Assembly (NCBI RefSeq): GCF_015062935.1
Contig: NZ_SUTM01000015.1
Coordinates: 1-58,348 of the forward strand
Direction of reading: 5' to 3'
Origin: Methanobrevibacter sp.
Lineage (GTDB): Archaea > Methanobacteriota > Methanobacteria > Methanobacteriales > Methanobacteriaceae
Length of the DNA: 58,348 nucleotides
Shown here: in pieces, positions 2,939-44,339 of the stretch
Numbering within the stretch: position 1 is the stretch's first letter
Layout: each line of letters begins with the position of its first letter
The notes under the pieces: model-generated
Told to the model about the DNA's origin: nothing
Databases searched by the model: none
Seen by the model: only the letters and a program-made list of their open reading frames with translations
Translations under genes and position numbers: made by a program

Positions 2939-3877
2939 TTAAAAATCAAATAACGTTGTCTGTTTTGGCTCAATATATCTTTCTACTTTCGTATCAATTA
3001 GATTATCTTCTTCCTTAAGATGTCCTAACAACAATGGCGATTTCTCATCATGCAGTTTTATAACCTTTTTAGGAATGTCAGGTTTCCGGTTGGCATAGCA
3101 ATATTTGCATTCGCTTAAACAGGAATTATATGCCCCTATGTCTCTTGACGGAATGCAGTGACAGTTTTTTCTAATTCCACTGGCTTTAACGTTTTTATAG
3201 ACTACACCATGAGCCTGTTCCAATATCTCACTGGAAGTACAACCTGCAGGATGAATACCGTATTTTTCATAGATTTCATTTGTTGCACATGTTTGGGTAT
3301 ACAAGCCATACTTCTCGGATATCTCACCGATTCCCTTCAATAGCCTAACCTTATCCTCTTCACTAAATGGAATTATCTCAGGCATGTTCTCTTCAACTTT
3401 CCTGTACATATCAACAAAGCTGAAGATGCATCTGTAAACTATCGGGGATATCCTTTCAGCCATATACTCAAATGTTTCCAAATGTTTTTCAACAGTGTAT
3501 TTTTCAGTCAGAAGTATCGGATCGTATCTCCAGAGAATTTTGTTGCGACCAACGATATCAGATAATCTCTCCAACGTCTTAATAGATTGATCGATTGATG
3601 GAACCTTGGGTTCTATGTCCTTGCCATATGCAGTAATCGTATAGTTGCACAATATATTGTACTTTTCATCAATGCCATCTATATGTTTCAGTATAGGTTG
3701 GTAGTTTTTGGAGCAGAAGAGAAGACAATCCACATCTTCAGGCTTTAAGCTTAGCTTATAAACCTGTTCTCTTGCAAATGGATTTCTTGAATATGCATAC
3801 CCTTCAGCTAGTCTATTCAATAGCCATGGAGTAAAGTAGTTCACTATATCTGTTCTTCCGCCGACATTTATTATCAT
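2939..3877 (-). CDS. DUF1848 family protein with C-terminal radical-SAM-like cysteine motif
   Basis: About 312 aa. The N-terminus (IINVGGRTDIVNYFTPWLLN) and the WRYDPI motif near residues 115-120 are hallmarks of DUF1848. Near the C-terminus there is CHC, then after 12 residues CLSECKYC: a CX3CX2C motif with an aromatic before the last Cys, followed by YAN. That is the form of a radical-SAM iron-sulfur site, but it lies at the C-terminal end rather than the N-terminal. An upstream in-frame GTG (3886) is part of the likely ribosome site GTGAT, which sits five bases before the ATG at 3877, so that ATG is preferred. Paralogue of the next gene (4026-4901). Function unknown. Confidence 0.8.
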   Translation of the reverse strand: MIINVGGRTDIVNYFTPWLLNRLAEGYAYSRNPFAREQVYKLSLKPEDVDCLLFCSKNYQPILKHIDGIDEKYNILCNYTITAYGKDIEPKVPSIDQSIKTLERLSDIVGRNKILWRYDPILLTEKYTVEKHLETFEYMAERISPIVYRCIFSFVDMYRKVEENMPEIIPFSEEDKVRLLKGIGEISEKYGLYTQTCATNEIYEKYGIHPAGCTSSEILEQAHGVVYKNVKASGIRKNCHCIPSRDIGAYNSCLSECKYCYANRKPDIPKKVIKLHDEKSPLLLGHLKEEDNLIDTKVERYIEPKQTTLFDF

Positions 3878-4025
3878 TTGTATCACTAATATTTTTGGTG
3901 ACAGTCACATTTCTTATTTGTGTTTTTACCAGCAATTCCAATAAATAATTTCTGTTCAAGACAACAATTTTATTTCTATACATTCACCAAATAATTTATT
4001 TTTTATCTGAATATATGTTAAGATT

Positions 4026-4901
4026 TTATCGTTTGAACGAAATTGCAAAACTTAAATTACCAAGCGGAATAATATTATTATCTGTAGTGAGAGAAAAGTA
4101 GTAGATTATTTCTTGATTATTGGCGTAACAGTACTTGCAGCCATGCATGCAGGTGTTGTATGCTCCAATATCCCTTCCGAATATACAGTTGCATTCACGG
4201 TTCTGATATTTTCCTTTAGGCAATTTCAAATTATTTCCAATAGCTTTTTCAATCACCTGTTGGGTCATGCATCCTGATGAGTCACATCCGAACTGATCAA
4301 GCAGTGTTCCCTCAAGACATGTCCTGATTAGAATATCGTTTTCACGGGCAATTCTTGAAAAATTCTCACCTATAATCAATTGCTCTTCAACAGTTACCTC
4401 ATCGGCTTCAGGAAAATTCCTTATGACCTTTTTGTATAAATCAATGAAGCTTATTGTGCAGTCATGAGTATAGCCTGCCAAATCTGATGCAATTTCTTCA
4501 AACTTGTCAATGTGAAACTCCAAGTCATATTTTTCTGTTATAAAAATAGGATCATATCTCCAGGCTATGGCATTTGTTCCAACATTTTGTGAAATTTTCT
4601 TAAATGTTTTGATTACATTTCTATAATTCGGGACATTAACCTCAACATCCCTTCCATAAGGATTTATTGTTAAAAACCAATACTGCTTATAATCTGTGAG
4701 CTCATCCAAATGTTTTACAAGAGGCTTTGGATTTTTGGAACAGAAGCACATGCAGTCAACGACTTTTGGATTAATAGGATAACTGTAAATATCATTATTA
4801 TAGGGATTTTTACTAAAAACAAAACCCTCATCAACCCTGTTCAAAAACCATTTGTGAAAAAAAGCGGGAATATCAGTTCTTGAACCTGTATTAAGAATCA
4901 T
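4026..4901 (-). CDS. DUF1848 family protein, second copy
   Basis: A 291-aa paralogue of 2939-3877, with the same opening (LNTGSRTDIPAFFHKWFLNR), the WRYDPIFITEKY motif and the same C-terminal cysteines: CNC, then CMHGCKYCYAN, again CX3CX2C with an aromatic. After this it carries about 25 extra residues. It starts at an ATG that follows directly on the T-rich tail of the terminator-like palindrome at 4920-4937, with no clear ribosome site. It may therefore be expressed at a low level by read-through from the mevalonate genes, or as a near-leaderless message. Function unknown; a metal or iron-sulfur centre is likely from the cysteines. Confidence 0.78.
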   Translation of the reverse strand: MILNTGSRTDIPAFFHKWFLNRVDEGFVFSKNPYNNDIYSYPINPKVVDCMCFCSKNPKPLVKHLDELTDYKQYWFLTINPYGRDVEVNVPNYRNVIKTFKKISQNVGTNAIAWRYDPIFITEKYDLEFHIDKFEEIASDLAGYTHDCTISFIDLYKKVIRNFPEADEVTVEEQLIIGENFSRIARENDILIRTCLEGTLLDQFGCDSSGCMTQQVIEKAIGNNLKLPKGKYQNRECNCIFGRDIGAYNTCMHGCKYCYANNQEIIYYFSLTTDNNIIPLGNLSFAISFKR

Positions 4902-35407: not shown

Positions 35408-36424
35408 TTAAACCTCAAAAACCTCACTATCAGAGATTTCTTCAATTCTATCAATAATATCCAATATATATTTATCCTTTTCAAAAGAGTGTAATCCGCA
35501 TTCTGCATTGCCTGACAGGACACTGAAAAAGTCCTTAATTTCTTCAAGATACGCATTTTCAATGATTGTCTGATTATAATCATTTTCTTTTGAGATTTCC
35601 TCATATAAATTCAATTTCTTCATTTCATTCACGTCAAAATCAAATTCTTCAAAACCTTGAGGAGTTCCATCCCAAGACAAATAAATATCCTCGTTAATGA
35701 TTTCCAAGTTCCTTACAGCTTTACGTGATGCCAAATCAACAATTAAAGCGCCACGACTGCCGTTTTCATGAATAATATTTATAAAAAAGCTGTCTGGATA
35801 GTCAATTTCCAAATCAGTGATCTTATTTTTAGATACATGCAATTTCTCAATATTGCCGAATACATTTACAATCCACGGCAGTTCAATAGCTAAAATTTCT
35901 CTACAACCATTAGTTTTTTTATTTCCCACGAAAAAGTTTTTATAACTCTCCCAAGGGTGCCAATCCGGCAAATAATTACCTATATGATAGATATAATTAG
36001 TAACTTTGTCTGAATCCTGAACCTGTGAGTCAATGTAATTGATTTCTTTTCTGTAAAGTTGTGTTGATGATAAAAACAAGACTAACTCATTTTCATTGGA
36101 CAAATCAATATTTTCAGTATAACCCTCACTAACCAAATTGATTTCGGTGAAAACATTCAAATTTGAATTTAAAGCCTGTTTAATTAAATTAGAATGAGTT
36201 AATGGTGGAGTTGATATAAACACTGCATCAAAATTATCTAAATTAAAAAATTCATTGGAATCATTAAAAACATCAATATTAAATAATGATTTTACCTCAT
36301 TACATCTCTCATCACTATTATCAATTCCAACAACATTTATTTCAGGAAAATTTTCTTTTATTAGTCTAATTCTTCTTTTTCCCATTGAACCTAAACCGAT
36401 TACACCAACATTCAAATTTATCAC
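35408..36424 (-). CDS. Gfo/Idh/MocA-like protein lacking the EKP lysine
   Basis: A 338-aa paralogue-like partner of 34471-35406. The Rossmann motif is VGVIGLGSMGKRRIRLI. Where relatives have EKP it reads FTEINLVSEG, so the conserved catalytic Lys is missing. It may be non-catalytic, or a subunit of a complex with the next gene product. The start is uncertain: GTG at 36424 overlaps the stop of the epimerase gene (GTGA), while TTG at 36415 has GGAGTGAT four bases before it. Confidence 0.8.
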   Translation of the reverse strand: MINLNVGVIGLGSMGKRRIRLIKENFPEINVVGIDNSDERCNEVKSLFNIDVFNDSNEFFNLDNFDAVFISTPPLTHSNLIKQALNSNLNVFTEINLVSEGYTENIDLSNENELVLFLSSTQLYRKEINYIDSQVQDSDKVTNYIYHIGNYLPDWHPWESYKNFFVGNKKTNGCREILAIELPWIVNVFGNIEKLHVSKNKITDLEIDYPDSFFINIIHENGSRGALIVDLASRKAVRNLEIINEDIYLSWDGTPQGFEEFDFDVNEMKKLNLYEEISKENDYNQTIIENAYLEEIKDFFSVLSGNAECGLHSFEKDKYILDIIDRIEEISDSEVFEV

Positions 36425-37554
36425 TCCAACTCAAAAAATTTCTTATTTAATAAATCATCATTAATATCTAACTTATTTAAAATTTTACAGATATTTTCAC
36501 CAGATTTCCCATCTCCATAGGGATTAATACAATTATTTAATTTATTTTGATAATCTTCACTTTTAATATAATTCATGGCATTTAAAATTTCATTGGAATC
36601 ATAATCAACATCAATAACATTCTCTGCCTTTTCACGGCCAGCCTGCCTAGTTCCGATATTAATTACAGGCAGCTTAAATGAAGAAGATTCAATTATTCCA
36701 CTGCTTGAGTTTCCTATCAATGCACTGGCTAACCCCAAAAGACCAATGAAATCGTCGTGAGGGATGTTCTTATAAGCGTCAACATCATATTCGTTTATTT
36801 TCTCAATCATTGCCCTTCCGCCTGCATCTGCATTCGGATAAACCAATAAGATCTGATAATCAGTAGAGGTTACCGCATCTAAAGTTTGTTTAATCTGATT
36901 AGATGAGTCTTCAACCTCCAAACTAACAGGATGCTGCAATACAAGAATGAAATCATGTGCAATATTATATTTTTCCTTCAAATGCTTTTCATCAATTTTA
37001 TCTTTAATTTTAATTATTGAATCTAATCCAGGCGCTCCAACAACAAAAATATTGTCCGGATTTTCACCCATTTGCCTTATTCTTGATGCGCTTTTTTCAG
37101 TTGCCGCAAAGTGAATATTGGACAATTTTGTTATTGCATGGCGAGCGGAATCATCGACGGTTGATGAAACATCACCACCATGAATATGTGCAACAGGAAT
37201 CTGCAGATAGGAAGCGACAATTGCTCCGGCCAGCATTTCACCACGGTCTCCTAAAAGTAAAACGACATCAGGTTTTATTTCAACCATCAGTTGTGTTAAA
37301 TCGCCGATGAGATTACCAATGAATGCAGACATTGACTGCTCATCGTCTTTTAAAAATGTTTGATTAATAACATGTAAATTAAAATTATCCTTTTTAACTT
37401 CATCTAATGAATATCCAAATTCTTCCATTAAATGCATACCAGTTACTGCAACTTCCAGGCGAATATTTTCATCATTATCCAATAATTCCAAGGCATCGTG
37501 CATTAAACCGTAATCTGCTCTTGTTCCAGTAATATATAATACTTTCTTTAACAT
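36421..37554 (-). CDS. Hydrolysing nucleotide-sugar 2-epimerase, NeuC/LegG-like
   Basis: About 377 aa. The start KKVLYITGTRADYGLMHDAL is typical of NeuC/LegG, which release NDP and invert C2 to give a free ManNAc-type sugar. Other motifs: VLLLGDRGEMLAGAIVAS, VAHIHGGDVSSTVDDSARHA, and the phosphate/UDP-binding IGNSSSGIIESSSFKLPVIN. The ATG at 37554 lies two bases after the synthase stop; a longer start would overlap that gene. Product feeds the adjacent synthase. Confidence 0.9.
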   Translation of the reverse strand: MLKKVLYITGTRADYGLMHDALELLDNDENIRLEVAVTGMHLMEEFGYSLDEVKKDNFNLHVINQTFLKDDEQSMSAFIGNLIGDLTQLMVEIKPDVVLLLGDRGEMLAGAIVASYLQIPVAHIHGGDVSSTVDDSARHAITKLSNIHFAATEKSASRIRQMGENPDNIFVVGAPGLDSIIKIKDKIDEKHLKEKYNIAHDFILVLQHPVSLEVEDSSNQIKQTLDAVTSTDYQILLVYPNADAGGRAMIEKINEYDVDAYKNIPHDDFIGLLGLASALIGNSSSGIIESSSFKLPVINIGTRQAGREKAENVIDVDYDSNEILNAMNYIKSEDYQNKLNNCINPYGDGKSGENICKILNKLDINDDLLNKKFFELE

Positions 37555-37556
37555 AA

Positions 37557-38591
37557 TTATTCCAAATCTTCCCATTGCAAAACATGACCTGATTTTAGGT
37601 CTTTATTAACTGTTTTGCCTATTAAATCATCAACATACTTAGGAGCAATACCTGTTCCAGGCCGTTTAATTGACAGCATCTCTTTTTCAAGCACATCCCC
37701 TTTTTTGAGATTATCATTTAAAATGATGCTTTTTCTTGCAACCTTTTTAATTTCATTTTCATTTTCAGAAAATTTCCTAACACCATCCCCCATTGCAACC
37801 TCAACATGCCTGATTGCACTTACCATAGCTTTAAATTCCTCAGGATTTAAAGACGCCTTATGGTCCGGGCCTTCGAGCGTTTTATCCAATGTAAAATGTT
37901 TTTCAACAACACATGCACCCAATGCAACAGCTGCAATCGGAAGTTCTATGCCCTGAGAATGGTCTGAAAATCCGATTGGCACATCCAATTCATTTTGTAA
38001 TGTTTTTATGAAATTTAGATTTGCTTCCTCAAATGAAGTCGGATATCCTGTAATGCAATGCAAAATGCATAACTTTTCCTTATTTTCAATGAAATCATAG
38101 GTTTCTTTAATCTCTTCCAAGGTAGCCATGCCTGTTGACAAAATTAATGGTTTATCAGTATTTAAAACATAATCAATCAGTTCAAAATTATTCAGTTCAC
38201 CTGAACCCAATTTATAAAGTGAAACACCTAACTTCTCTAAAAGATCCACACTTTTAAAATCAAAAGGTGAAGATAAAAATACTACTCCACACTCTTCAGC
38301 ATAGCTTTTAAGTTCATAAAAATCATCATATGACAATTCCAATTTTTTTAGCATTTCAAGTTGTGAATTTTCATTAGTATTTTTTTCCTGATATTCAGCA
38401 GTTTTTGCATTTTCACTAACCAAATCCTCACTGACAAAAGTTTGAAATTTAACAGCATCAACACCACATTTACTAGCTGATTTAATCATTTTACGAGCAA
38501 GTTCAATACTGCCATTATGATTAACACCAATTTCAGCAATGATAAATGTAGATTTAACATTCGATTTATTACATTCAGCATCAAAAATCAT
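37557..38591 (-). CDS. Nonulosonic acid synthase (NeuB/LegI-like)
   Basis: A 344-aa enzyme condensing a six-carbon amino sugar with PEP to give a sialic-type nine-carbon acid. The TIM-barrel domain has FIIAEIGVNHNGSIELARKM, DAVKFQTF, LGSGELNNFELI and VEKHFTLDKTLEGPDHKASL. The C-terminal SAF (antifreeze-like) domain covers about 280-344. First gene of the minus-strand unit that continues with the 2-epimerase. Sequence alone does not separate sialic from legionaminic acid, but the dehydratase and aminotransferase nearby favour the latter. Confidence 0.92.
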   Translation of the reverse strand: MIFDAECNKSNVKSTFIIAEIGVNHNGSIELARKMIKSASKCGVDAVKFQTFVSEDLVSENAKTAEYQEKNTNENSQLEMLKKLELSYDDFYELKSYAEECGVVFLSSPFDFKSVDLLEKLGVSLYKLGSGELNNFELIDYVLNTDKPLILSTGMATLEEIKETYDFIENKEKLCILHCITGYPTSFEEANLNFIKTLQNELDVPIGFSDHSQGIELPIAAVALGACVVEKHFTLDKTLEGPDHKASLNPEEFKAMVSAIRHVEVAMGDGVRKFSENENEIKKVARKSIILNDNLKKGDVLEKEMLSIKRPGTGIAPKYVDDLIGKTVNKDLKSGHVLQWEDLE

Positions 38592-39767: not shown

Positions 39768-41774
39768 TTAGTTTAATTTTTCATTATCACATGCCCTTTT
39801 AATTAGCATGTCTTGATATTCAATAGGCAAATCCTTAAAATAGGAACTAAATCCCCAAACACGAACAATTAAATTAGGATATCTATCAGGATGTTTCTTT
39901 GCATCAATTAGGATTTTTGATGAAACAACATTAAGCTGCATCTGAAAAACACCCATGTTTAAACTCATTTTAAGAAAATCAAGAAATTTATTGAAATTTT
40001 TCTCAATGAAATCTGGAGCAACCATAAAATCCACTACATTCCCATTGAACTTATGATTAGTATAATCCAGTTTAGATGCAAAATGCATAATTTCAGTGTA
40101 ATCATTATTATCATCTAAAGAGATGTGCACATTAAACGGTTCATAATCCTTTCTACCATCTAGAGATGCAGAAATATCTAAAGATCCGCTTATGTAACTT
40201 GGTGCACTTAATCCAAATTTAAATTTACCCCCGTATCGTGTTCTTTCACTCTCAAAAACATCATCAACAAAACATATAATTTCATTAGTTAATCTAATAA
40301 TTTCCGAATCATCCATCCCAAATCTTTTTTGGTTTTTAAGTTCATTTAATAATACTTGATCTTGAAAATTTGCTTTTCGACTTTCGTTTAATTCTTCAAA
40401 GGAGTATTTTTCATCATCAAAAACTAATTTTTTTATATTATACAAACTATTTACAGTATTCGATAATGATACTGAAGTTAATCCATAATTATTATAAACA
40501 GCACCACCTTCCGATACATCATTATTATTATTATCAATGAATAATGAAATAATTGGATCTTCTTCCCAAACATAATTATTAATTTGATTTAAAATTTCAT
40601 TTACATGATATTTCAGATAAATTTTATAATCCTCCAAGAATTCGTTAAAGTTTGAATATTTTGATAATTCTTCATTATCCAATAACTCATTTAATGGTTT
40701 TAAAAAGATAATAAGATTAACATTATTTAATTCTAAACCTTTACCTACTGGCGCAGGTTCCCAACAGGCAGAAACAATATAGTTATATGCATCTTCTTTT
40801 TCATATCCAAATTCTATTAAATTTTTTATGACTAAATCATCATTTGACAATAATGGTGAACCAATTCCAGTAGCCAATGTTTCAACAGCAAGCTCCATCA
40901 AATCATCCGGTGTGTTATCAGAATATCTCAAAATGATTTTTGGATCAGGTAAGTTAAGTTCTTTTAAAGCATTAATGAATAAATATGTTAAATCATTGCA
41001 AAAATAGGAATTATCTTCATTTAATCCTCCTAAAACAATGATTTGGCCAGTGTCTCCCGCAAGTGCATCACTTTTGAAATAATAATAACTATGAAGTTTT
41101 ATTATAAAATCTTTAATTAGTTCATATGCTTCGTTTTTACTAATATTATCCTTTTCATACAAATCATTCAAAATTAAATCAATCCTTCCCACACCATTTA
41201 AATGATGATTTGTTTGCCATAATGTTTGATTAAAAAATAAAATTCTTTGTAATGCTTCTTTAAACGATTCTGCTTTTTTAAATTTAATATTTTCCAGATA
41301 AGCTATATATTCAAATTTATCTTCGCGATTAGATGACATCAATTCCTCAATTTCACGATCAATTAATATTTCAAAAGCTTTTAATGTATCTAATTGATTT
41401 GATGAAAATTCATTTTGAGTATTATAAAATACTTTCAAATCTTCTATCGAATTATTTAAAATTTTACTATAATCCATAGTAATATTTCCTATAATCCTAT
41501 TTTCATAATTTAAACATTTCCAAGAGTCTAATGTGAAAATAAATCCTTCTTTAGGAATATTAATATTAATTTTTGCAAATAAATCTTGTATTTGTTTTCC
41601 TTTTGTCTGTTTTAAAGAAGGAGTATAAAAATCATGTAATCTCTTAAAAATATTATTCGAATAATATTTATTTAATTTTTTTGACAACGCCTTAAAAATT
41701 AATATTTTTTTTGCATACTCAAAAAATCCTAGCTTTAAAAGGATTGATTTGAGATTTAGTATTAAATTAACCAT
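39768..41774 (-). CDS. Glycyl radical enzyme of the CxEP (eliminase-like) type, function unknown
   Basis: A 668-aa enzyme, shorter than most glycyl radical enzymes (about 750-850). Active-site Cys337 lies in VSACWEPAPVGKG; the CxEP form, with Glu339, is that of dehydratase/lyase members (glycerol dehydratase, choline lyase) and not of pyruvate formate-lyase. The radical Gly641 lies in IVRVWGFSSYFKDL, the RVxG motif. LDGRKDYEPF (538-547) is the conserved loop before it. N-terminal ~50 residues are basic and hydrophobic. It is divergent from a flippase gene and the matching activase (43620-44339). Its substrate is unknown; a glycan precursor or its polyol/amino-alcohol substituent is the guess from context. 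Confidence 0.88.
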   Translation of the reverse strand: MVNLILNLKSILLKLGFFEYAKKILIFKALSKKLNKYYSNNIFKRLHDFYTPSLKQTKGKQIQDLFAKININIPKEGFIFTLDSWKCLNYENRIIGNITMDYSKILNNSIEDLKVFYNTQNEFSSNQLDTLKAFEILIDREIEELMSSNREDKFEYIAYLENIKFKKAESFKEALQRILFFNQTLWQTNHHLNGVGRIDLILNDLYEKDNISKNEAYELIKDFIIKLHSYYYFKSDALAGDTGQIIVLGGLNEDNSYFCNDLTYLFINALKELNLPDPKIILRYSDNTPDDLMELAVETLATGIGSPLLSNDDLVIKNLIEFGYEKEDAYNYIVSACWEPAPVGKGLELNNVNLIIFLKPLNELLDNEELSKYSNFNEFLEDYKIYLKYHVNEILNQINNYVWEEDPIISLFIDNNNNDVSEGGAVYNNYGLTSVSLSNTVNSLYNIKKLVFDDEKYSFEELNESRKANFQDQVLLNELKNQKRFGMDDSEIIRLTNEIICFVDDVFESERTRYGGKFKFGLSAPSYISGSLDISASLDGRKDYEPFNVHISLDDNNDYTEIMHFASKLDYTNHKFNGNVVDFMVAPDFIEKNFNKFLDFLKMSLNMGVFQMQLNVVSSKILIDAKKHPDRYPNLIVRVWGFSSYFKDLPIEYQDMLIKRACDNEKLN

Positions 41775-43619: not shown

Positions 43620-44339
43620 ATGACTGTACGAATTACGAACATCCAACATTTTTCACTCCATGATGGTCCCGGAATAAGAACAACTGTATTTCTTAAAGGT
43701 TGCAACTTAAAATGTCCATGGTGTGCTAATCCAGAATGTATTTCATCTAAAATCCAAGGAGAATTTGGATATGATATCTCATTAGAGAAATTGGAACAAG
43801 AAATCGTTAAAGACAAACCATTCTATGAAACAGGGGGTGGAGTGACCTTTTCTGGAGGGGAACCTCTACTTCAAATTAATGATTTAGAACCTCTTTTAAA
43901 ATCCCTAAAAAATAAAAATATCAATATTTGCTTTGAAACAGCACTATTTGTTCCTGAAAAATATTTAAAAATTGCTAAAAAATATAGTGATGAATTTATT
44001 GTTGACATTAAAATGATTAATCATGAAAATTGCAAAGAAGTAATTGGAGGAGAAATTGACCAATATTTAAATAATATAAAACTACTTGATTTAAAAAAAA
44101 CTACATTTAGAATTCCAATAACAAAATTCATCCTTAAAGATACAAAATTAATTTTAGATTTACTAAAAACTTATCAACCTAAGCATTTGGAGATATTTGA
44201 ACTCCACAATCTCGCAAGAAAAAAATATGATATTTTAAATAAAGAACAATATTATGAAAAAATAGATGATAGAGAAATTAAAGAATTTTATGAAAAATTA
44301 AAAGAAATTATTCCTACTACAGAAATTATCGAAATTTAA
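43620..44339 (+). CDS. Glycyl radical enzyme activase (radical SAM)
   Basis: A 239-aa radical-SAM enzyme. It starts with ITNIQHFSLHDGPGIRTTVF, the hallmark of glycyl radical activases, and the cluster motif CNLKCPWC (28-35, CX3CX2C), followed by ANPEC. GGGVTFSGGEPLLQ (about 77-90) binds SAM. The ferredoxin-like cysteine insert that most activases of eliminase-type enzymes have is absent, so the length is closer to that of the pyruvate formate-lyase activase. It would place the radical on Gly641 of the enzyme at 39768-41774; no other glycyl radical enzyme is seen in the window. Confidence 0.92.
   Translation: MTVRITNIQHFSLHDGPGIRTTVFLKGCNLKCPWCANPECISSKIQGEFGYDISLEKLEQEIVKDKPFYETGGGVTFSGGEPLLQINDLEPLLKSLKNKNINICFETALFVPEKYLKIAKKYSDEFIVDIKMINHENCKEVIGGEIDQYLNNIKLLDLKKTTFRIPITKFILKDTKLILDLLKTYQPKHLEIFELHNLARKKYDILNKEQYYEKIDDREIKEFYEKLKEIIPTTEIIEI

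Follow-up and report, generated by a model that had tools for sequence, protein, structure and literature searches.

The window analysed here, a 58,348-nucleotide stretch of DNA from Methanobrevibacter sp. (contig NZ_SUTM01000015.1), carries on its minus strand two genes in tandem, P0001 and P0002, whose products belong to the DUF1848 family (PF08902). We found that DUF1848 proteins are, almost certainly, circularly permuted relatives of the SplB-like radical S-adenosylmethionine (radical-SAM) proteins. Computational analysis yielded a permuted sequence relationship, a match of the predicted fold to radical-SAM enzymes, an invariant set of three plus four cysteines, and a C-terminal motif in the tails of many members. 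The explanation that we favour, and consider probable, is that DUF1848 is a permuted SplB-type radical-SAM enzyme that is tethered to the sliding clamp in many members, perhaps for repair.

The two DUF1848 genes of the window

Both proteins matched PF08902 over their full length, with scores above the Pfam cut-off of 30.5 bits, and a third DUF1848 copy is present elsewhere in the genome. The N-terminus of P0001 reads VIQMIINVGGRTDI and the family consensus starts as MIISASRRTDIP; from this comparison, the ATG of codon 4, at 3877, is probably the true start of P0001, not the GTG. The genes and their motifs are as follows.

2939 to 3886, minus strand: P0001, DUF1848 protein of 315 residues counted from the GTG (PF08902, E = 8e-94, 314.7 bits)
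3098 to 3121, minus strand: CX3CX2C of P0001 (C256LSEC260KYC263YAN), a radical-SAM-type cluster motif that aligns with the SplB-like cluster motif
3152 to 3163, minus strand: CxC of P0001 (C242 and C244), which may form a second metal site together with C200 and C216
3284 to 3292, minus strand: TC200A of P0001, with the third of the four cysteines of this putative site
3236 to 3247, minus strand: AGC216T of P0001, with the last of these four cysteines
3845 to 3856, minus strand: RTDI near the N-terminus of P0001, aligning with GGVTD behind the SplB-like cluster motif
3515 to 3532, minus strand: WRYDPI of P0001 (residues 119-124), in which DPI aligns with MPI of a later SplB-like strand
2942 to 2962, minus strand: QTTLFDF at the C-terminus of P0001, resembling a sliding-clamp (PCNA) binding motif
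4026 to 4901, minus strand: P0002, second DUF1848 protein, 291 residues (PF08902, E = 3e-94, 316.1 bits)
4128 to 4151, minus strand: CX3CX2C of P0002 (C251MHGC255KYC258YAN)
4182 to 4193, minus strand: CxC of P0002 (C237 and C239)
4545 to 4562, minus strand: WRYDPI of P0002 (residues 114-119)

DUF1848 aligns with SplB-like proteins after circular permutation

A DUF1848 profile was built from 70 of 93 non-redundant homologues and compared with a reference profile of 43 NF033668-type SplB-like proteins, which had been kept by hand from 55 open reading frames (ORFs) with a CX3CX2C motif in loci fetched with NF033668, one of the 43 being trimmed by 150 residues. The NF033668-type members tested matched NF033668 with E-values of 4e-44 and 5e-42; COG1533 and SplB are labels that we take to apply to this group, in which we count the NF033668 (PA0069) and NF038135 (Rv2578c) families. 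With both profiles in native order, hhalign aligned DUF1848 positions 247-270 with SplB-like positions 26-49 (E = 9.4e-8) and DUF1848 positions 32-197 with SplB-like positions 88-278 (E = 5.5e-7), so that the two matches stood in the wrong order. When residues 235-290 of DUF1848 were moved to the front, a single alignment of 206 columns with the SplB-like profile was obtained, with an E-value of 4.1e-14. This alignment paired YNSCLSECKYCYA with YRGCEHGCRYCYA, the N-terminal INVGGRTD with INLGGVTD, IEPKVPS with LEPGSPS, and DPIL with MPIV. The body alone, residues 1-195, which contain none of the seven invariant cysteines described below, aligned with the post-cluster part of the SplB-like profile at E = 1.3e-7, and two reversed controls for the alignment of the two families gave E-values of 0.27 and 0.42.

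Since E-values that hhalign derives from one pair of profiles are rough, the argument for permutation rests on the reversed controls and on a scan of cut points, in which the DUF1848 profile was cut at 24 positions and scored against the SplB-like profile. Scores were 52-60 for cuts at 1-86, rose from 77 to 95 for cuts at 101-191, reached a plateau of 101-103 at cuts 206-251, and dropped to 56 for the two cuts past the cysteine motif, 266 and 281. The scan thereby places the break of the permutation between about residue 206 and the CX3CX2C motif.

The cysteine-free body was also used in HMMER searches of 2838 ORFs, with 258 DUF1848 ORFs set aside. Because 60 loci fetched with NF033668 and 20 fetched with PF04055 were included, this set was by design rich in SplB-like and radical-SAM proteins. 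Among the first 25 non-DUF1848 matches, 23 came from the NF033668-fetched loci, and the remaining two were the NF033668-type protein of the Methanobrevibacter genome itself and an NF033668-type protein (E = 4.7e-42 against NF033668) near a DUF1848 gene on a plasmid. Sixteen of these 25 had E-values of 0.01 or below and the others 0.011-0.37, with the reversed body reaching 0.17 at best. The Methanobrevibacter genome encodes 20 PF04055 proteins, of which 11 matched the permuted or native profile at E <= 10, and the NF033668-type protein alone did so strongly (1.4e-6, the next being 0.13). Single DUF1848 members were compared with the family models directly: 22 of 70 matched PF04055 at E <= 0.1 (best 0.001) and 20 of 70 matched NF033668 (best 7.8e-4). 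The C-terminal motif of P0002 (residues 239-264) gave a weak match to NF033668 (rSAM_PA0069; E = 0.012), and in the reverse search four loci encoding DUF1848 were caught by NF033668, which matched a brief segment at the motif (E = 3.4e-4 to 9.6e-4). No NCBIfam match was obtained for P0001, and in a sequence search of solved structures the best E-values were 1.5 for P0001 (proline oxidase) and 9.6 for the profile.

The cluster motif of the majority of DUF1848 proteins, CxHGCxYCYA, is similar to the GCxHGCxYC of the SplB-like reference, and part of the SplB-like proteins also carry a clamp-type motif at the C-terminus. Unlike SplB-like proteins, DUF1848 proteins have four extra invariant cysteines and carry the cluster motif at the C-terminal end, and not in the N-terminal loop after the first strand that is usual for radical-SAM enzymes. 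The two are collinear only after permutation, and because the alignment needs it, we regard DUF1848 as a permuted relative of the SplB-like (NF033668-type) group and not as a member of it.

The predicted fold matches radical-SAM enzymes from its first residue

An AlphaFold2 model of P0001 was generated from an alignment of 68 rows, 3 of 71 candidate rows having been dropped for open 5' ends, and had a mean pLDDT of 94.5 and a pTM of 0.91. Comparison by VIA-align identified a partial beta/alpha barrel of the radical-SAM kind: such enzymes, recognised by name or by their known class, filled ranks 1-29 (Z 8.1-9.9) and 38 of the 50 rows listed (Z 7.7-9.9). Z-scores were 9.9 for biotin synthase, 9.7 for HydG, 9.4 for RlmN and 9.0 for pyruvate formate-lyase (PFL) activase. 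Spore photoproduct lyase (SPL) scored 8.9-9.2, with 178 residues aligned at 15% identity, the highest among the 50 rows listed.

All 38 radical-SAM rows were aligned from residue 1 of the model. The counterpart of this residue was number 124 in SPL (4fhf), 80 in biotin synthase (1r30), 64 in PFL activase (3cb8) and 168 in RlmN. We take the cluster cysteines of these proteins to lie at 90-97, 53-60, 29-36 and 125-132, respectively. By this numbering the N-terminus of the DUF1848 model would lie behind the cluster motif of each of the four enzymes, and because it starts there, the model matches what a permutation predicts. In a library of viral structures the P0001 model had one strong match, a DUF1848-like region in a 1278-residue protein of the crAss-like uncultured phage cr272_1 (BFVD A0A7M1RU68_5; TMq 0.63, E = 3.5e-11).

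An initial annotation of this DNA had suggested, from the position of the cysteines behind a barrel-like body, that the enzyme is either circularly permuted or convergent. Profile alignment, cut scan and fold match bear out circular permutation, and convergence is not supported, since the cysteine-free body is related to SplB-like proteins as well. Spore-photoproduct-lyase-like proteins, named there as comparators, proved an apt choice. Structure prediction with comparison to radical-SAM barrels had been proposed beforehand, and the AlphaFold2 model does match such barrels from residue 1.

Seven cysteines are invariant in the family

Archaeal homologues were gathered together with others from the phylum of a Clostridia genome, from cyanobacteria and Gastranaerophilales, from Bacteroidota, and from plasmids and records of phages or viruses. 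In a set of 148, whose rows are related and not independent and were picked for their profile score and for having 240 residues or more, not for their cysteines, C200, C216, C242, C244, C256, C260 and C263 (P0001 numbers) were cysteine in every row, as they were in a smaller set of 93 non-redundant rows. Since all seven are kept in 148 of 148 homologues, the pattern is not due to chance. The last three form a CX3CX2C with an aromatic residue before the final cysteine, as in radical-SAM enzymes, and this residue, Y262, was invariant both in these 93 and in the 68 rows used for structure prediction. T83, R120, D122 and P123 were also invariant in the 93 rows, and Y161 nearly so; D13 was present in 86 of 86 main rows, with D or E in all seven divergent rows. 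Viral contigs supplied a distant clade (L286-L289, L291 and L292; L numbers denote loci), 20-23% identical to P0001 in the alignment made for structure prediction, which has kept the seven cysteines and not D122.

The initial annotation had placed a CX3CX2C motif at the C-terminal end of both DUF1848 paralogues, and reading of the two ORFs confirmed this. The CxC followed by CX3C-KYC-YAN that it described is likewise present in both, although the invariant set consists of three plus four cysteines and not of a CxC plus three. It had also pointed to two tandem copies with WRYDPI. Both are there, but they did not arise by local duplication: P0001 and P0002 are 37-38% identical and fall into different clades of a FastTree tree, which rules out a recent tandem duplication. 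Because P0001 groups in this tree with copies from the Gastranaerophilales phylum (support 0.98), it may have been acquired by transfer.

Among the 21 loci found with P0001, 12 were from Methanobrevibacter, full-length or nearly so, with 80-93% identity. DUF1848 was present in 79 of the 151 genomes searched within the class of the window, in 90 of 299 genomes drawn from the phylum of the Clostridia genome, in 22 of 194 drawn from the phylum of the Gastranaerophilales genome, and in 8 phage records.

A divergent DUF1848 subfamily (L121, L122, L123 and L127) is marked by WTKFP or WTKHP and by CxPG..SxCIDG, and its proteins have next to no tail. Upstream of DUF1848 in L121 and L127 is a gene for about 640 residues, identified by Pfam as SelB in L121.

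Many members end in a sliding-clamp-like motif

A long tail, defined as 35-98 residues behind the cysteine motif, was found in 77 of the 148 homologues; the 71 with tails of fewer than 35 residues were outside the tail count. The motif Qxx[LI][FL] occurred within the last 12 residues of 47 of the 77 long tails. Shuffling of these 12 residues gave a mean of 3.25 and a maximum of 10 in 2000 shuffles, and shuffling of the whole tail a mean of 0.72 and a maximum of 5. Elsewhere in the long-tailed proteins the motif was seen in 5 of 1681 windows, and 4 of 832 other neighbourhood proteins ended with it, one being the NF033668-type protein of a Roseburia plasmid. Typical endings are QLELF, QLTLF, QMTLFDL and QLSIFDM, with KQTTLFDF in P0001. 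The motif was present in 13 of 17 long tails from Methanobacteria, 13 of 19 from cyanobacteria and Gastranaerophilales, 12 of 27 from the Clostridia-phylum draw and other hosts, and 9 of 14 from phage or viral records. SplB-like proteins have the same motif in 19 of 43 cases (for example, KQTTLF and KQSTLFDY).

In the accessible part of PMC4549789, the beta-clamp motif is given as Q-L-x-L-F, mostly at the C-terminus, and the PCNA motif as Q-x-x-I-x-x-F-F; the latter is also written QXXhXXaa in the part of PMC4929162 available to us. Judged by its residues, the DUF1848 tail motif appears close to these reported motifs, and QTTLFDF of P0001 lacks the second final aromatic residue of the PCNA motif. 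We consider it fairly likely that the tailed DUF1848 members bind the clamp.

Where a P0001-type gene follows directly, as in the window and in L002, L005, L006, L007, L009, L010 and L015, the P0002-type protein is short or has no conserved tail past CYAN. P0002-type genes that are not followed by a P0001-type gene in the stretch fetched (L032, L046 and L047) keep the tail.

Gene neighbourhoods

Neighbouring genes were mostly compared by clustering, and Pfam was run on 20 chosen neighbours. An AlkB-type dioxygenase gene was found near 4 of 11 DUF1848 copies of the phylum of cyanobacteria and Gastranaerophilales, at the following positions.

L062, 9870 to 10550: AlkB-type dioxygenase
L352, 5064 to 5720: AlkB-type dioxygenase
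L354, 4312 to 4950: AlkB-type dioxygenase
L355, 4327 to 4974: AlkB-type dioxygenase

The L355 protein matched PF13532 (E = 1.4e-39), that of a Planktothrix plasmid is annotated as AlkB, and the other two were assigned by similarity. These genes face away from DUF1848 or towards it and share no same-strand operon with it. Five of the 11 loci come from larger genomes (L062, L352, L354, L355 and L360) and include all four with AlkB; in the other six, which belong to small genomes of Gastranaerophilales or similar organisms, no AlkB was found. All four AlkB-type proteins have a clamp-like motif near the N-terminus (QISLWD, QITLWS, QLSIFS and QLSLWD).

A protein of about 300 residues adjoins DUF1848 in 9 of 74 host loci (L062, L324, L326, L330 as a fragment, L331, L333, L354, L355 and L378) and in several loci from viral contigs. 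Its AlphaFold2 model (5 rows, pLDDT 70.5) has a methyltransferase fold: Foldseek returned 139 matches at E <= 0.001, of which the 50 listed were nearly all methyltransferases, and the best VIA-align match (Z 15.8) was 8csu_7, one chain of an assembly intermediate of the human mitochondrial ribosome. The partner at 2084-2986 of L273 and its relatives, which carry cysteines close to the N-terminus and match no Pfam family at E = 0.001, lie next to DUF1848 on viral contigs as well as in loci from two phylum draws. The idea of a general operon partner was dropped, as none was recognised in most of the 74 host loci.

On the Roseburia plasmid (L064, 6313-12886), DUF1848 lies with macro-domain and Sir2-type genes; a few genes on are an NF033668-type radical-SAM protein that ends in QQSLFD and an ARMT1-like gene. 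In the window, the gene for P0002, a protein without a conserved tail, lies 24 bp behind a thiolase gene, and a thiolase gene directly precedes the P0002-type gene in many Methanobrevibacter-type loci. A function in the mevalonate pathway, considered from this neighbourhood, was dropped because it concerns the P0002-type copy only, and only in the Methanobrevibacter group.

Elsewhere in the window, a short and divergent glycyl radical enzyme is encoded at 39768-41774 (TIGR01774, E = 2.5e-71; 241 bits, where the cut-off is 678). A glycyl-radical-enzyme activase lies at 43620-44339, in the same region as NeuB (37557-38591) and NeuC (36421-37575).

Discussion

In a permuted SplB-type enzyme, the first strand and the cluster-binding CX3CX2C loop would now come last in the barrel, at its C-terminal end, and what is usually the second strand would open the chain. 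C256, C260 and C263 would ligate a 4Fe-4S cluster, at which SAM would be cleaved to give a 5'-deoxyadenosyl radical; we consider radical-SAM chemistry in DUF1848 very likely. The other four cysteines could hold an auxiliary cluster or a zinc ion, and we lean towards a second cluster on C200, C216, C242 and C244. The tail may dock on PCNA in archaea and on the beta clamp in bacteria, and if it binds the clamp, the tailed enzymes would work on DNA at the fork or in its wake. Reversal of a lesion by hydrogen-atom abstraction, as performed by spore photoproduct lyase, would then be the most likely reaction, and on this analogy we put forward a role in DNA repair tentatively.

Several observations weigh against this explanation. 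Unrelated barrels in the VIA-align list reached Z-scores of 8.1 and 8.0, some of them also from residue 1, so the margin of the radical-SAM enzymes over other barrels in the model comparison seems real but modest. Plain Foldseek, which by itself gave no separation of radical-SAM enzymes from other barrels where VIA-align did, had ordinary TIM barrels among its best matches, the top one being an EAL domain (E = 3.9e-4). P0001 had no PF04055 match at E <= 0.1 and P0002 none at E = 0.001, both thus falling short of the Pfam cut-off, and a PF04055 search of the genome at E = 0.001 returned 20 proteins but none of the three DUF1848 genes; PF04055 is a linear model and cannot span a permutation. The 71 short-tailed homologues, P0002 included, had the tail motif in one case only, so that a clamp tether is not general in DUF1848. 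P0002-type genes of Methanobrevibacter lie behind genes for HMG-CoA synthase and thiolase. In most of the 74 host loci, where not every neighbour was identified, no DNA-repair gene was recognised; AlkB was found in 4 of the 74 and the methyltransferase-fold partner in 9.

Some of these observations would suit a permuted radical-SAM enzyme that acts on a small molecule, a protein or RNA, with the tail serving another purpose or merely the localisation of some members. The homologues without a long tail, the HMG-CoA synthase and thiolase neighbours, the resemblance of the methyltransferase-fold partner to a ribosome-assembly chain, and the macro-domain and Sir2-type genes beside the Roseburia copy all fit such an activity. 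Clamp-type tails, however, recur across Methanobacteria, cyanobacteria and Gastranaerophilales, the Clostridia-phylum draw, viral records and the SplB-like relatives, and AlkB lies near some DUF1848 copies; we therefore hold a substrate other than DNA to be rather unlikely. The EAL-domain barrel at the head of the Foldseek matches could also point to a zinc-binding TIM-barrel protein that has no Fe-S cluster and resembles radical-SAM enzymes by convergence. An aromatic residue that never varies ahead of the third cysteine, the PF04055 and NF033668 matches of individual members, and the kinship of the cysteine-free body with SplB-like proteins make such a protein very improbable.

A C-terminal cluster could, in addition, arise without permutation, if a TIM barrel had separately gained a cluster arm, possibly exchanged with a partner subunit, as in a non-canonical radical-SAM enzyme like ThiC. 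In the part of PMC4389238 available to us, ThiC is described as a beta/alpha barrel that bears a cluster domain at its C-terminus and thus resembles DUF1848 in having its cluster cysteines near the C-terminus of a barrel; it differs in its CX2CX4C motif (CX3CX2C in DUF1848), its domain-swapped cluster arm and its barrel family. Since, moreover, the DUF1848 barrel body shows a kinship of its own with the post-cluster part of SplB-like proteins, and the two become collinear over motif and body only after permutation, we judge a separately gained arm very improbable.

A Pfam note on DUF1848 presumably states that its C-terminal cysteines resemble the radical-SAM site, with no word of a permutation or a clamp tail; for this reason the raw observation of the initial annotation may not be new. 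In the literature covered, with few subscription papers reached, neither DUF1848 nor PF08902 was found, and within the same scope we did not find the permutation, the SplB-like kinship, the three plus four cysteines or the clamp-type tail in print. The permuted proteins in the accessible parts of PMC1282579, PMC6411480 and PMC10332631 are others than DUF1848. In the part of a review available to us (MacNeill, PMC4929162), archaeal SplB-like genes are reported to adjoin nreB, with the substrate given as unknown and crosslink repair speculated, and NreA, of the family of NreB, has a C-terminal PCNA-interacting protein (PIP) motif and a role in DNA repair. Compared with the SplB-like proteins described there, DUF1848 is permuted and many members have a clamp-like tail of their own; by analogy, DUF1848 would fit such a repair setting.

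The permuted branch is poorly found by linear radical-SAM profiles, as the PF04055 search of its own genome illustrates. Taken to its full extent, the favoured explanation would be a permuted, two-cluster, clamp-riding system of direct-reversal DNA repair that serves methanogens, gut bacteria, cyanobacteria and phages and works, in certain lineages, alongside AlkB and a methyltransferase-fold partner; this full form we regard as more speculative than a repair role as such. If it holds, many SplB-like proteins outside spores would be clamp-bound DNA enzymes, and a genuine clamp tail would mean that this large family without a name, like the SplB-like proteins of organisms that form no spores, has a concrete and testable role in DNA repair.

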